Shown piece by piece: positions 51,050 to 57,110 of a stretch of DNA of 64,000 nt (position 1 is the first letter of the stretch; each line of letters opens with the position of its first letter). The notes beneath the pieces were generated by a model that saw only the letters and a list, made by a program, of their open reading frames with translations, was not told the origin of the DNA and searched no databases. Where the stretch lies: positions 825,536-889,535 of the forward strand of contig NZ_KI530762.1 in the NCBI RefSeq assembly GCF_000488275.1, read 5' to 3'. The position numbers and the translations under genes were made by a program. The DNA is from Acinetobacter brisouii CIP 110357. GTDB lineage: Bacteria; Pseudomonadota; Gammaproteobacteria; Pseudomonadales; Moraxellaceae.

Positions 51050-52417
51050 TTAACCTGCTGAATAAGCTAAAGATGCTGCCTGAATGTTGTCAGTTGCATC
51101 GGGCAAGTTGCGAACCAGCAAGGCAAACTCAACATCAATGCTGGCATCCAGTGGAATTTCAACAATATGTCCTGAGCCTTTGGCATTGTCAATCTGATTG
51201 CCTTTCAGGTCACGCATTTCGGTTAAAGTAAAGGTAATGTTGCCTTTTGGTGTCATAAGCTCAAGTGAATCGCCGACAAGGAAGCGGTTTTTCACTTCAA
51301 TGCGAATATAGTCACCATTGCGTTCAAGCACTTCACCACAGAACTGTTGATAATCAAAATGTGATGAACCATCTTCATAGTTTTGATATTCGCTATGTAC
51401 ATGGCGACGCAAGAAACCTTCGGTATAACCACGGTTTGCCAACCCTTCGAGTTGAGTCATCAGGCTTGGGTCAAATGGGCGACCTGCCAAAGCATCATCA
51501 ATGGCTTTACGGTAAATCTGCGCGGTACGTGCACAGTAAAAATATGACTTGGTACGACCTTCAATTTTTAAAGACGCAATGCCCATGTGTGTCAAACGAT
51601 CAACATGCTGCACGGCGCGTAAATCTTTGGAGTTCATGAAGTAAGTGCCATGTTCATCTTCTTCAGCAGCAAACATATCTTCATCATTACGCTGAATCAG
51701 CACAGGTTCAGCAAATTGATGCTGATCATTTTCACTCGAACAGCAGGTTTTTTTATCTTCAACTTGAGTGACAGGAATCACGTCGCCAGTGGCATCTTCT
51801 TGTGTTTCGTGGATTTTATATTCCCAGCGGCAAGCATTGGTGCATGCGCCTTGGTTGGCATCGCGTTTATTCATATAACCAGACAGCAAACAACGTCCTG
51901 AATACGCCATGCACAACGCACCGTGTACAAAAACTTCAAGCTCGATGTCTGGAACATGCTGTTGAATTTCTTCAATTTCATCGATTGATAATTCACGCGA
52001 TAAAATCACTCGAGTCAAACCATAGTCTTTCCAGAATTTAACGGTCGCCCAGTTAATGGCATTGGCTTGTACAGACAAATGAATCGGCATATGTGGAAAA
52101 TGCTCACGTACCATCATGATTAGACCTGGGTCAGACATGATTAGGGCATCGGGTTGCATCGCTACTACAGGCTCAAGATCGCGAATAAAGTTTTTCAGTT
52201 TGCTGTTGTGTGGCTGAATATTCACGACCACATAGAATTTTTTACCCAATGCATGTGCTTCATTAATGCCGATTTGTAAGTTGTCATGATCAAAGGCATT
52301 GTTACGTACACGTAAGCTATAACGGGGTTGACCGGCATAAACTGCATCTGCACCATAGGCAAATGCATAGCGCATGTTTTTGAGCGAACCAGCAGGTGAG
52401 AGAAGTTCTGTTTTCAT
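51050..52417 (-). CDS. trhP: U32-family tRNA hydroxylation protein TrhP (YegQ)
   Basis: A 455-residue U32 peptidase-like protein. The N-terminus reads ELLSPAGSLKNMRYAFAYGADAVYAG, and the central iron-sulfur cysteines are seen in VHGALCMAYSGRCLLSGY and GACTNACRWEY near 170-200. YegQ/TrhP makes the 5-hydroxyuridine at position 34 of certain tRNAs, using prephenate-dependent chemistry, despite the old peptidase label. A region with the motif KKTCCSSENDQ near 232 carries two more cysteines and looks like an insert. ATG at 52417 is taken rather than GTG at 52426. It is directly followed by a ferredoxin gene. Confidence 0.85.
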   Translation of the reverse strand: MKTELLSPAGSLKNMRYAFAYGADAVYAGQPRYSLRVRNNAFDHDNLQIGINEAHALGKKFYVVVNIQPHNSKLKNFIRDLEPVVAMQPDALIMSDPGLIMMVREHFPHMPIHLSVQANAINWATVKFWKDYGLTRVILSRELSIDEIEEIQQHVPDIELEVFVHGALCMAYSGRCLLSGYMNKRDANQGACTNACRWEYKIHETQEDATGDVIPVTQVEDKKTCCSSENDQHQFAEPVLIQRNDEDMFAAEEDEHGTYFMNSKDLRAVQHVDRLTHMGIASLKIEGRTKSYFYCARTAQIYRKAIDDALAGRPFDPSLMTQLEGLANRGYTEGFLRRHVHSEYQNYEDGSSHFDYQQFCGEVLERNGDYIRIEVKNRFLVGDSLELMTPKGNITFTLTEMRDLKGNQIDNAKGSGHIVEIPLDASIDVEFALLVRNLPDATDNIQAASLAYSAG

Positions 52418-52521
52418 GGTAAACACAGTAAAAGCTTAGAAAAAATAGGGGAATATTTTAGTGATTCTCTGTGTGGCGCTCAACCCAGTATTTTAGTCGG
52501 AATTATGAAGCAATCAGGCAT

Positions 52522-52552
52522 AAAAAAACCACACCGAAGGGTGTGGTTTTAC
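52522..52552 (-). terminator. Intrinsic terminator after the undecamer-repeat gene
   Basis: On the minus strand, AAAACCACACC and GTGTGGTTTT pair around a TTC-containing loop and run into seven T residues. Confidence 0.85.
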
Positions 52553-52566
52553 TGGGAGTAGATGAA

Positions 52567-52926
52567 TTAATCGTGTTTTGGAGCAGGTTTTTTGCTGTCG
52601 TGGTGAGTGACTTTGTGTACAACGTGTTTTGTGCCTTGACCTACTTTATGTACAACATGTTTGGTCTCATGTCCTACTTTACGTGCAACGTTTTTAGTTC
52701 CATGCCCAACTTCACGGGCAACATGTTTGGTTTCATGCCCAACGTTGTGAGCTACTTTTTTAGTATCATGTCCAACTGTATGTGCTGCATGTTCAGTTTT
52801 TTGTACAACTTTATGTGTTGTTGATTCAGTCTTTTCAGGATGCTGTTGCACAGGCTCAGCCATTGCAGTACCTGTAAATGCAGTTGCAGCAAAACCAAAG
52901 ATTAAAGCAGCGGTAAGTTTTTTCAT
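52567..52926 (-). CDS. Exported protein built of seven 11-residue repeats
   Basis: A 119-residue protein. Residues 1-23 are a signal peptide ending AMA. Residues 36-112 are seven back-to-back 11-mers with consensus VAHKVGHETKH: positions 1 and 5 are mostly Val or Ala, 6 Gly, 9 Thr, 10 Lys. The repeat is rich in His and Lys with few acidic residues. Undecamer repeats of this kind occur in group 3 LEA and apolipoprotein-like proteins and fold as amphipathic helices on surfaces or when dried. The tail is KKPAPKHD. It has its own terminator. A role in envelope stress or metal binding is only a guess. Confidence 0.75.
   Translation of the reverse strand: MKKLTAALIFGFAATAFTGTAMAEPVQQHPEKTESTTHKVVQKTEHAAHTVGHDTKKVAHNVGHETKHVAREVGHGTKNVARKVGHETKHVVHKVGQGTKHVVHKVTHHDSKKPAPKHD
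52591..52821 (-). repeat. Seven tandem 33-base coding repeats
   Basis: Codons 36-112 of the exported protein consist of seven imperfect 33-base units. Units 3-6 are the most alike; the first and last have drifted. Unit number could vary between strains by slippage or recombination without shifting the frame. Confidence 0.7.
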
Positions 52927-53255
52927 TTCGGGATCAACCTTGTTTTTTCGTTAGGTGGTGGATTTCACACTGACATTATCTCTAAGAGTTGTGTAAATTG
53001 TATGGAGCTAAGTTACTATGATGTATGGGGAAATATAATTTATGACATGAGAATGGTTAATTCTTTTATCATTAAAGCTTATTTTAAGAAATGCTGTCAC
53101 ATTTTCTTCATCAAGCCGCAATATTGCAACGATAAAAATATAAATTGTACAGCGTTGCATGAATTAATAAGAGTGTCCTATTTTCTTTGTTGTTTGTGCC
53201 CTAGGCAAATCGTAAAGTAACTCTATATTGTGTTATTCGAATTTAGGTGATTTAC
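52927..53255. other. AT-rich divergent intergenic region
   Basis: This 329-base gap separates the repeat-protein gene from a dioxygenase gene and must hold both promoters. I see no convincing gene: a 72-codon forward frame (53002-53220) lacks a ribosome-binding site and has atypical composition. No repeats are seen. Confidence 0.45.
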
Positions 53256-54086
53256 ATGTCTACAATAATTCCAACTCGGCAGCCTGTATTTTTTGTTTCG
53301 CATGGTGGTGGGCCTTGGCCGTGGATGCCAGACCATCTGGAAACCATTTATGCCAATCTTGCACAGTCATTAGCCACATTATTGCCAAGTCTGCCGCAAA
53401 AACCCAAAGCCATTTTAATGGTTTCAGCGCACTGGGAAGAACGTGAATTTACCGTACAGGCGACTCCTGAGCCAGGTATGATCTATGACTACGGTGGTTT
53501 TCCTGAGCATACCTATCATATTCACTATCGTTCGGCAGGTTGTCCTGAACTGGCACAACGCGTTAGCGAATTGCTCACACAAGCAGACATTCCTGTACAG
53601 CAAACCACAACTCGCGGTTATGATCATGGCATGTTTTCACCAATGCAGGTAATTAACCCTGCCGCAGATATTCCTGTGGTGCAGTTGTCCTTGAAAAAGG
53701 GGCTGGACCCTGCAGCGCATATTCAAATGGGGCAGGCTTTAGCACCGCTACGTGATGAAAATGTACTGATTATTGGCAGTGGTTTGAGCTACCACAACTT
53801 ACGCATGTTTAATGCATATGCTGCCGAGCCTTCGAAAGCCTTTGATCAATGGCTGTATTCAACAGTCGTTGAACATCAAGGCACAGCACGCAATCAGCTA
53901 TTGACGCAATGGGAGCAAGCTCCTGCAGCACGTATTGCACATCCACGTGAAGAACACCTCTTGCCTTTAATGGTCAGTGTGGGTGCAGCGCAACAGGAAA
54001 CTGGAGTGCGAACCTATCATGAAACTGGGTTTGTGGGTGGTTTATGGGTGTCCAATTTTGCTTTTGGTGAGTTGAAACAGGCGTAA
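53256..54086 (+). CDS. DODA-type extradiol dioxygenase family protein, copy 1
   Basis: A 276-residue class III (LigB-like) extradiol dioxygenase homologue. Likely metal and active-site motifs are VFFVSHGGGPWPW (residues 13-25), VSAHWEEREF near 58-67, TRGYDHGMFSP near 116 and a histidine in GSGLSYHNLR near 175. The family includes plant DOPA dioxygenase and E. coli YgiD. The reaction here is unknown. The ATG at 53256 is set by AGGTG six bases upstream; a GTG three codons earlier overlaps that site. A second family member lies downstream on the other strand. Confidence 0.82.
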   Translation: MSTIIPTRQPVFFVSHGGGPWPWMPDHLETIYANLAQSLATLLPSLPQKPKAILMVSAHWEEREFTVQATPEPGMIYDYGGFPEHTYHIHYRSAGCPELAQRVSELLTQADIPVQQTTTRGYDHGMFSPMQVINPAADIPVVQLSLKKGLDPAAHIQMGQALAPLRDENVLIIGSGLSYHNLRMFNAYAAEPSKAFDQWLYSTVVEHQGTARNQLLTQWEQAPAARIAHPREEHLLPLMVSVGAAQQETGVRTYHETGFVGGLWVSNFAFGELKQA

Positions 54087-54201: not shown

Positions 54202-54978
54202 TTAATCGAAACGATAAATGTCCATGCCTAATGTACCCATTGAAAAACTGCTATGCACAATGGTAAAGCGATGCCCCAAACCCATGGCAAAAAATAGCGG
54301 TGCAAGATGTTCAAGACTTGGGTGATTTTGCTGAATATGGGGAATAGTCTGCCAATTTAAAACAGCTTCGTAGTTCTGATGGTTGAGCTTTTGTACGACA
54401 TAATTGCGAAATTCCGATGCCCAAACAGGCACTGTTGCCTGTGCATTATGCCAAGACAATTCTGCCAGATTATGGGTAATACTGCCTGAGCCAATCAGCA
54501 GGATTTGTTGTTGGCGCAGCTCCTTTAAGGTCTGCCCAATCTTAAAAATCTCTTCGGCGCTATAGCTCATCGGTAAAGAAATTTCGACCACAGGAATATC
54601 CGCTTCAGGATATAAATGTAATAGAGGCATCCAAACCCCATGATCACGCGGACGAGTACTATTGGCATGTGCATGTAAGCCTGCTTCTGCCAGTAAATGT
54701 AAAATCTGCTCGGCAAGCTCTGGTTGTCCGGGTGCAGGGTAGCGAAGCTGGTATAAGGCTGGCGGGAAGCCACGAAAGTCATGCCAGGTTTCAGGGCGTA
54801 CTGCACTGCTGACTTCGAGAGCCTGACTTTCCCAGTGGGCAGACATGACCACAATGGCTTGGGGGCGAGGCAGGTTTAGGCCTAAACGCTGCAATGCTGG
54901 ACCAACCTGCTCAGGGTCGAGTGCCAGCAGGGGAGAACCATGAGAAATAAATAACCCAGGTAAAGTTTGAAGATGCAT
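54202..54978 (-). CDS. ygiD: 4,5-DOPA extradiol dioxygenase family protein (YgiD-like), copy 2
   Basis: A 258-residue member of the DODA family and closer to E. coli YgiD than copy 1. Motifs are LFISHGSPLLALD (near 9-21), VMSAHWESQALEV near 45, STRPRDHGVWMPL near 107 and GSGSITHNL near 165, giving the histidines for the metal site. E. coli YgiD cleaves L-DOPA between carbons 2-3 or 4-5 of the ring. ATG at 54978 is chosen because AGGTG sits six bases upstream. rlmH lies upstream on the same strand with a 35-base gap. Confidence 0.85.
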   Translation of the reverse strand: MHLQTLPGLFISHGSPLLALDPEQVGPALQRLGLNLPRPQAIVVMSAHWESQALEVSSAVRPETWHDFRGFPPALYQLRYPAPGQPELAEQILHLLAEAGLHAHANSTRPRDHGVWMPLLHLYPEADIPVVEISLPMSYSAEEIFKIGQTLKELRQQQILLIGSGSITHNLAELSWHNAQATVPVWASEFRNYVVQKLNHQNYEAVLNWQTIPHIQQNHPSLEHLAPLFFAMGLGHRFTIVHSSFSMGTLGMDIYRFD

Positions 54979-55013
54979 AAGGTTCACCTGAATTTAAACT
55001 GTTGCATCATGCT

Positions 55014-56018: not shown

Positions 56019-56390
56019 ATGTTGAAGAAAATTATAACCACTATGTTAGTGGTTTCGACAGTAGCCACCAGTAGTCTAGCAATGGCAGAACCTTGGCATG
56101 ATCGTGATGGAGATCGTCACGGTTACGATCACCGAGGCGATTATAGAGATCATCGAGATTACCGTGACGGACGTGGTTGGGAACATCGTCATGAAGACTG
56201 GGATGATCATCGCGGTCACTGGTCACGTGGTGACCGATTACCCCCTCGTTATCGCGGCGATTATGTAGACTGGCGCGAACATCACTTGCCATACCCGCCA
56301 CGTGGGCATCGTTGGGTACGTGTGAATGGCGATTACTTATTGATTGCGATTGCCACAGGTATCATTACCGGAACGATTTTATCGCGCTAG
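56019..56390 (+). CDS. RcnB-family periplasmic protein, copy 1
   Basis: A 123-residue exported protein. Signal peptide 1-23 ends AMA. The middle (about 25-75) is a run of Asp, His, Arg and Gly (DRDGDRHGYDHRGDYRDHRD). The C-terminal RcnB domain reads YVDWREHHLPYPPRGHRWV, then VNGDYLLIAIATGIITG, ending in a hydrophobic stretch. E. coli RcnB is a periplasmic protein needed for nickel/cobalt balance, though family members in many bacteria have unknown roles. GAGG lies eight bases before the ATG. A related gene follows 300 bases downstream. Confidence 0.8.
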   Translation: MLKKIITTMLVVSTVATSSLAMAEPWHDRDGDRHGYDHRGDYRDHRDYRDGRGWEHRHEDWDDHRGHWSRGDRLPPRYRGDYVDWREHHLPYPPRGHRWVRVNGDYLLIAIATGIITGTILSR

Positions 56391-56690: not shown

Positions 56691-57110
56691 ATGCGTAAGT
56701 CAAAATGGATGGCTGTCGCCTTGGCACTCAGCACCAGTCTTGCATCGGGGTTAACTTTGGCAGATCCGTGGGATCATGATGATCGAGCCTCGGAATATTA
56801 TGGGCATGATCATTATCGTCATTGGGATGATCGACCATCAGAATATTACGAACATCATCATTATCGCCATTGGGATGAGCCACAACCACGTTACTGGCGA
56901 GATCGAGATCATCCTGTACGTTATTGGCATGAAGGGCAATATATTCCACGTGATTACATGGATGATCGCTATTATATAGACTGGCATGAACGACGTTTAC
57001 CACCACCTCCATATGGTCATCGCTGGATGCAGATTGATGGAGACTTTGTACTGGTTGCAGTAGCATCAAGTGTGATTACTCAAATTTTACTTGGACCCCA
57101 TTTTCATTAA
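56691..57110 (+). CDS. RcnB-family periplasmic protein, copy 2
   Basis: A 139-residue exported protein, paralogous to the gene upstream. Signal peptide 1-24 ends TLA. Residues 31-62 are two tandem 16-residue units (consensus DRxSEYYxHxHYRHWD), giving a His/Tyr/Asp-rich surface suited to metal binding. The RcnB domain follows: YIDWHERRLPPPPYGHRWM, then IDGDFVLVAVASSVIT. Compared with copy 1 the linker is longer and richer in aromatic residues. AGGAG is spaced a few bases from the ATG. Metal binding is inferred. Confidence 0.8.
   Translation: MRKSKWMAVALALSTSLASGLTLADPWDHDDRASEYYGHDHYRHWDDRPSEYYEHHHYRHWDEPQPRYWRDRDHPVRYWHEGQYIPRDYMDDRYYIDWHERRLPPPPYGHRWMQIDGDFVLVAVASSVITQILLGPHFH
56781..56876 (+). 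repeat. Tandem 48-base coding repeat
   Basis: Two adjacent 48-base units (56781-56828 and 56829-56876) encode the repeated 16-residue segment of RcnB-like copy 2. They differ at a minority of positions, mostly silent, so the duplication is not brand new. Confidence 0.75.

Follow-up and report, generated by a model that had tools for sequence, protein, structure and literature searches.

What could be the function of a small exported protein that consists, behind its signal peptide, almost entirely of 11-residue repeats rich in histidine and lysine? The question is raised by a short gene in the window, that is, the whole stretch of 64,000 nucleotides of the Acinetobacter brisouii CIP 110357 genome analysed here. 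The original prediction, made from the sequence alone, placed the open reading frame at 52567-52926 on the minus strand, which agrees with the ORF call, and offered roles in desiccation, at membrane surfaces or in metal buffering. The features of the gene and its flanks are listed in Table 1.

Table 1. Features of the undecad-repeat gene and its flanking regions
Feature	Position	Strand	Basis or remark
Coding sequence, 119-aa exported His/Lys-rich undecad-repeat protein	52567..52926 (stop included)	-	ORF call; dN/dS
Putative signal peptide, aa 1-23, MKKLTAALIFGFAATAFTGTAMA	52858..52926	-	Sequence; cleavage AMA|EP read by eye
Linker, aa 24-35 (12 residues), EPVQQHPEKTES	52822..52857	-	Sequence
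Seven 11-residue repeats, aa 36-112	52591..52821	-	Tandem Repeats Finder; lag-11 count; AlphaFold helix
Repeat units 1-4 of 7: TTHKVVQKTEH, AAHTVGHDTKK, VAHNVGHETKH, VAREVGHGTKN			Sequence
Repeat units 5-7 of 7: VARKVGHETKH, VVHKVGQGTKH, VVHKVTHHDSK			Sequence
Basic tail, aa 113-119, KPAPKHD	52570..52590	-	Sequence; 5 of 7 positions invariant in five orthologues
Putative intrinsic terminator, stem-loop CCACACC-CTTC-GGTGTGG plus T-run	52522..52546	-	Read by eye
Conserved upstream block, candidate promoter and 5' leader	52927..53012	-	86 bp before the start codon; orthologue comparison
Possible -10 element, GATAAT	52975..52980	-	By eye; conserved, one change in A. brisouii TUM15274
Conserved element TCCATACAATTTACACA, possible regulator site	52990..53006	-	Orthologue comparison; putative function

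The repeat protein and its orthologues

That seven tandem 11-mers follow the signal peptide was borne out by counting: at a lag of 11, 40 of 85 mature residues are identical, against a mean of 9.2 (sd 2.8) and a maximum of 21 in 20,000 shuffles, and Tandem Repeats Finder detects a 33-bp period in the DNA of the gene. The consensus VAHKVGHETKH given originally is a fair one. The export signal is also supported, by a signal peptide read by eye from the sequence, and 22 of its 23 residues are invariant in five orthologues. The mature chain of 96 residues contains 17 His (18%), 15 Lys, 2 Arg, 7 Glu and 3 Asp, in line with the predicted richness in His and Lys and scarcity of acidic residues, and is devoid of any aromatic, Leu, Ile or Met residue. 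Among repeat units 2-6, third codon positions account for 64 of the 98 base differences summed over the ten unit pairs, a distribution suggestive of old units maintained at the protein level.

The dN/dS values of all ten pairs of the five orthologues range from 0.059 to 0.141, a mark of purifying selection, and we therefore concluded that the gene is real. By protein search, 25 of 149 Acinetobacter genomes match at E <= 0.01, five of them strongly (E <= 7.3e-45, own genome included). A profile search with the five orthologues gave 14 matches at E <= 0.001 in 175 Acinetobacter genomes, with strong orthologues in five, the window's included (E <= 8.7e-56), a next best match of 8.3e-6, and no strong match in the other 170. 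Fifteen of 299 genomes of the family match, three of which belong to another genus and carry short Lys-rich exported proteins. At the level of the phylum the count is 9 of 398, the window's own included; the eight further matches were rejected as orthologues: they are either different 11-mer proteins, exported or lipoproteins, or apparent chance frames.

The orthologues besides the window's are those of Acinetobacter sp. ANC 3789, MB5 and ANC 4633 and of A. brisouii TUM15274. The carriers are also the genomes whose TrhP is nearest to that of the window, at 98-100% identity; 89% is the value for the genome that comes next. Their proteins are 119, 119, 119, 108 and 108 aa in length, corresponding to seven or, in two of them, six repeats; the comparison of repeat number between strains thus revealed variation by one whole unit.

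The locus and its upstream region

The TrhP gene, 51050-52426 (-), lies downstream of the repeat gene beyond the stem-loop and T-run, and a divergent LigB-type dioxygenase gene, 53259-54086 (+), lies upstream. Because of this terminator-like stem-loop on one side and the divergent gene on the other, the repeat gene appears to stand alone. In three orthologues one pair of the terminator stem is changed from C-G to T-A. Neither the terminator nor the -10 element, both read by eye, was listed by the automatic scans, and Rfam gave no match at E <= 1 within 52300-53400.

Several other features were observed nearby. A second LigB-type gene, 54202-54987 (-), is convergent with the first; both match a DOPA-dioxygenase model below the cut-off, and both stay together with TrhP and RlmH in genome G129 (labels of this kind are our own). 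The stretch AGTGTCCTATTTT at 53172-53184, upstream of the divergent LigB gene, is identical in all five orthologous loci and is perhaps part of the LigB promoter. Two adjacent genes, 56019-56390 and 56691-57110 (+), encode exported His/Asp/Arg-rich proteins of the RcnB family, and the latter harbours a 48-bp tandem repeat at 56778-56878. The presence of these two RcnB-family proteins 3-4 kb away would suit a metal-buffering function of the repeat protein, but with several genes in between they probably do not form a unit with it.

Of the last 86 bases before the start codon, 85, 83, 82 and 74 are shared with ANC 3789, ANC 4633, MB5 and A. brisouii TUM15274, respectively. The corresponding numbers, in the same order, are 89, 85, 76 and 72 of the 94 bases from -180 to -87, and 107, 98, 68 and 66 of the 120 bases from -300 to -181. 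Since conservation falls with distance from the start codon, this gradient points to a constrained promoter, most clearly in the comparison with MB5 and more weakly in that with A. brisouii TUM15274. Two TCCA half-sites 11 bp apart are found in the four other orthologues and in G129, the window having the first half-site only. As the mark of a regulon, the upstream pattern was rejected: with up to two mismatches, eight genomes contain 19 sites for it and 15 for the reversed control, and it was written from the same upstream sequences and thus matches there by construction. The genome of the window has one such site, and the short-protein gene of genome G050 is without the pattern. BfmR governs the drying tolerance of A. 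baumannii, and BfmR/RstA sites were searched for on that ground. The P. aeruginosa BfmR motif TACAA-N3-GATACA, as given in the available part of PMC8025907, was not found in register upstream of the repeat gene.

The gene was not found by tblastn (E <= 1e-3) in 39 TrhP loci, which were drawn from the 112 non-carrier genomes with a TrhP match; in 3 of these 39 loci TrhP adjoins LigB1, with about 0.2 kb between them. Synteny was thereby rejected as a route to a genus-wide orthologue. From this comparison of loci, the gene is one that has been gained, moved or lost around the TrhP-LigB locus, and it yielded no source for the gene.

Family searches and look-alike proteins

With the repeat protein, every match to a Pfam or NCBIfam model stays below the cut-off of that model; the protein was not placed in an unrelated characterised family, the outcome which the original prediction had named as speaking against it. 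The best matches below cut-off, PepSY_2 (0.0032) and XAC1346 (0.0034), were taken as composition matches, as was the PDB sequence match, a zinc-finger chain at 0.011; the literature search found no paper on XAC1346. Neither a LEA model nor an Asr model (NF033636, PF06392) matched at E <= 1 in Pfam or NCBIfam, the E. coli Asr control giving 102 and 47.8 bits with the two Asr models, respectively. In Pfam, the Synuclein model gave no match, the RcnB domain is absent from the protein and present in the two neighbours mentioned above, and the Apolipoprotein model matched with E 0.0093 and 16.1 bits, far below its cut-off of 90. Judged by these profiles, the protein is not a recognised LEA or Asr member. 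In the open-licence literature, no paper on it was found among the titles and abstract beginnings of the matches listed.

Two groups of Acinetobacter proteins are nearest to it: longer exported 11-mer proteins, and short exported proteins, rich in His and Lys, whose signal peptides resemble its own. Those of the long group have about 180-310 aa and 11-, 29- or 33-residue repeats, and His makes up 1-3% of L024 and L009. Repeat numbers differ among the members (L024, L016, L022, L134, L010, L013, L014, L009 and L007), which are spread over many Acinetobacter genomes; L024 passes the Pfam cut-offs for DUF1283 and Senescence, and L016 that for DUF1283. The genome of the window itself encodes a second exported LEA-like protein of 135 aa (L129:1429-1836 (-), G000:C1 near 257187-257504), by eye a relative of L017. 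A lipoprotein made of near-perfect KETAERVADKT 11-mers (L188:1498-1818 (-)) was also seen in a 1.8 Mb genome of the same class, with weak Synuclein and Apolipoprotein matches below cut-off.

In 5 of the 23 loci scanned, and in G129, a gene of the short group adjoins one that was called OsmC-like by eye; the His/Lys scan used fixed thresholds, and loci without a match may still hold such a gene. In these six Acinetobacter genomes the small exported His/Lys-rich genes beside the OsmC-like gene (L160, L173, L176, L177, L181 and L077) diverge fast. The NCBIfam model of Asr is the best or second-best match in five of six short proteins, always below the NF033636 cut-off of 50 bits: G129 scores 29.5 bits (1.1e-6), G026 28.3 (2.5e-6), G102 21.9 (2.4e-4), G050 19.3 (0.0015) and G098 15.4 (0.025; second best there), and the short protein of G020 gave no match to it. 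For the short proteins of the other genus the E values are 0.39, 0.07 and none. These (L183, L184 and L185) are Lys/Gln-rich and exported, have a similar signal peptide and belong to the same family of bacteria; L183 has an 11-residue period of 0.35, reached by 1 of 1000 shuffles. Some short look-alikes match ZIP, ZnuA or ZrgA weakly, which might have hinted at metal, but the repeat protein has none of these matches and ZIP also matches E. coli Asr weakly (0.24).

Kinship was compared by BLAST against 13 subject sequences, with the mature start set by a simple rule that cuts G102 and G129 a few residues late. Plain BLAST gave 2.8e-11 for L009, 2.5e-10 for G129, 1.3e-9 for G102, 5.9e-9 for L024 and 4.2e-4 for E. 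coli Asr. After correction for composition, L024 (2.3e-8) and G050 (3.0e-8) came first, then L009 (1.2e-6) and the short proteins of the other genus (1.8e-6 to 2.9e-5), and the matches to G129, G102 and E. coli Asr vanished. The link to the short group runs mainly via the signal peptide, and that to the long group via the repeats. When the G129 protein was searched against the genome of the window, the repeat gene was the only match at E <= 0.01 (9.6e-5). The similarity of its upstream region to that of G129 was equalled by 1-13 of 442 null upstreams and that to G102 by 6-43 of 442, which is only suggestive, and the upstream region of G050 showed no similarity. Common descent with the short or the long group is plausible from these comparisons.

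Helix pattern, charge and candidate functions

AlphaFold, given a five-row alignment, predicts one helix at residues 37-112, nearly the exact span of the repeats. The best model has a mean pLDDT of 62.7, reaching 77 in blocks of ten residues, and a pTM of 0.29; scores of the other four lie between 38.8 and 53.3. The 11/3 helix pattern gains some support from sequence geometry and from this model of modest confidence. The moment of hydrophobicity peaks at 98.5 degrees and that of His at 97.5 degrees, and of five harmonics the third is the strongest for both properties. On an 11/3 wheel, an arc of 98 degrees takes in positions 1, 5, 9 and 2 (Val, Val, Thr and Ala/Val); positions 3, 7 and 11, where His occurs in 5, 5 and 4 of the 7 units, lie at 196-262 degrees. 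Permuted columns reach the observed moments in 1635 of 50,000 cases for hydrophobicity and in 1145 of 50,000 for His, so the stripes are suggestive, not overwhelming.

The mean helix propensity of the repeats is 0.53 kcal/mol, compared with 0.55 for TrhP, 0.51 for L024, 0.42 for L009 and 0.31 for E. coli Asr without prolines. Since this value is about that of TrhP, an enzyme, and poorer than that of L009, a helix in water is not assured, and we infer that the repeat region is a conditional helix. Foldseek returned no matching chain for the predicted helix, which weighs little because a single helix holds little fold information.

The calculated charge of the mature protein rises from +7.8 at pH 7.5 to +18.5 at pH 6 and +24.4 at pH 5; the values for E. 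coli Asr are +14.2, +19.4 and +22.1. Hydrophilins are defined by Gly > 6% and a hydrophilicity index > 1, according to the available text of PMC7448490. The mature protein lies above both limits (Gly 7.3%, hydrophilicity 1.23), and the precursor falls short in hydrophilicity (0.78).

Taken together, we tentatively read the protein as an Asr-like, pH-charged periplasmic hydrophilin that would protect the envelope under acid or related stress, with a probability of about 45%. The accessible part of PMC10746267 describes Asr as a disordered chaperone of the periplasm, which supports the integrity of the outer membrane and whose level rises about 1000-fold at pH 4.4. Like Asr, the repeat protein is small, exported and rich in Lys and His, lacks aromatic, Leu, Ile and Met residues in its mature part and gains charge with acid; unlike it, it has no profile match, is rich in His/Val/Lys/Thr rather than in Ala/Lys/Thr/Gln, and is built of regular 11-mers where Asr has a weak 21-residue period. 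The signal peptide would export the protein, presumably to the periplasm or the surface, where near neutral pH it would be a mildly basic chain, either loose or a surface-lying helix. With falling periplasmic pH, the 17 His would be protonated and the charge, by calculation, roughly tripled; the resulting polycation could bind acid-damaged envelope proteins and LPS phosphates, reducing aggregation and leakage, and could also take up protons. The conserved upstream block may place the gene under its own, stress-responsive control. Bulk composition and amphipathic pattern would matter more than fold, in which case variation by one whole unit between orthologues is to be expected. In the part of PMC12871917 available, the designed LEA peptide LEA-K improved the viability of E. 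coli at pH 4; an acid-protective 11-mer is therefore not far-fetched.

In favour of this acid-stress reading we count the signal peptide, the repeats, purifying selection, the charge rise, the hydrophilin composition, the helix prediction and the sub-threshold Asr matches of the short look-alikes. Against it stand the missing Asr match of the protein itself, the failure of any look-alike to reach 50 bits, and the long proteins L024 and L009, which BLAST places no farther away than the short ones. A role in acid or envelope stress, which the original prediction did not name, suits the short exported look-alikes somewhat better than the roles it did name, although the repeat protein itself is without an Asr match. 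Roles in desiccation, lipid binding and metal buffering overlap, and one hydrophilin may serve several.

The desiccation role suggested originally would make it a LEA-3-like periplasmic protectant, disordered in water and an 11/3 amphipathic helix on drying, which shields membranes and enzymes. Its undecad period, helix prediction and hydrophilin composition fit, as does a helix propensity that leaves the helix in water unassured. With group 3 LEA proteins it shares the tandem 11-residue repeat and the 11/3 pattern, but it differs from them in being exported and His-rich with few acidic residues (10 of 96). The long exported 11-mer proteins of other Acinetobacter, one LEA-like example of which is encoded in the genome of the window, also have a signal peptide and VG..TK.. 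undecads (L024, L009, L010) and match as closely by BLAST as the short ones; they differ in length, signal peptide, C-terminus and His content (1-3% in L024 and L009 vs 18%). In A. baumannii, tolerance of desiccation is supported by the hydrophilins that dtpA and dtpB encode, as far as the excerpts of PMC13232832 and PMC10808703 describe them, and the mature protein resembles DtpA and DtpB in its hydrophilin values, a purely compositional likeness. Zmo0994 of Zymomonas, described in the available text of PMC7448490 as a bacterial LEA-like protein with a periplasmic signal sequence, is alike by description only. No LEA model matched and just 5 of the 175 Acinetobacter genomes have a strong match; the link to desiccation gained no direct support, and we regard it as unlikely.

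Another reading is that of an amphipathic helix binding surfaces in the manner of apolipoproteins or synuclein: its Val/Thr face would rest on either membrane, outer or inner, while Lys and His touch phosphates and His tunes the affinity with pH. The moment peak, the strongest third harmonic and the weak Apolipoprotein match agree with it, but the number of permutations that reach the hydrophobic moment makes the amphipathicity only moderate and the mature chain offers no aromatic, Leu, Ile or Met residue, and we hold it to be improbable. A bolder proposal, on which we would place equally little weight, is that the His-striped undecad helix is a pH switch: at about pH 7.5 it would be neutral and lie on the membrane, and below pH 6 it would be a polycation that detaches or bridges LPS. 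It would have arisen in one Acinetobacter group, either from an Asr-like His/Lys tail that turned into a LEA-like 11-mer array or from a LEA-like array that was enriched in His. A periplasmic metal buffer, with Zn, Ni, Co or Cu bound by pairs of His along the helix, is very doubtful: the richness in His (17 of 96) speaks for it, but the HxxxH pairs were rejected as a metal signature, their number (5 seen against 2.8 expected) being reached by 225 of 2000 shuffles and thus not beyond composition.

The protein seems to be a new, local form of a known protein style, made by a few close relatives within Acinetobacter. Repeat proteins of this sort, small, exported and cationic, are easily missed because they have no family match, and even if the acid-stress reading is wrong, this one is still one more hydrophilin. 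Its six- and seven-repeat orthologues provide a ready test of whether dose and pattern or sequence carry the function. The pH-switch origin, if true, would show two known protectant designs interconverting. If the protein does protect against acid, it would give some Acinetobacter an envelope protectant of the Asr kind and would connect the acid-shock design with that of LEA proteins and hydrophilins, with 11-mers serving in acid stress once His replaces the acidic residues.
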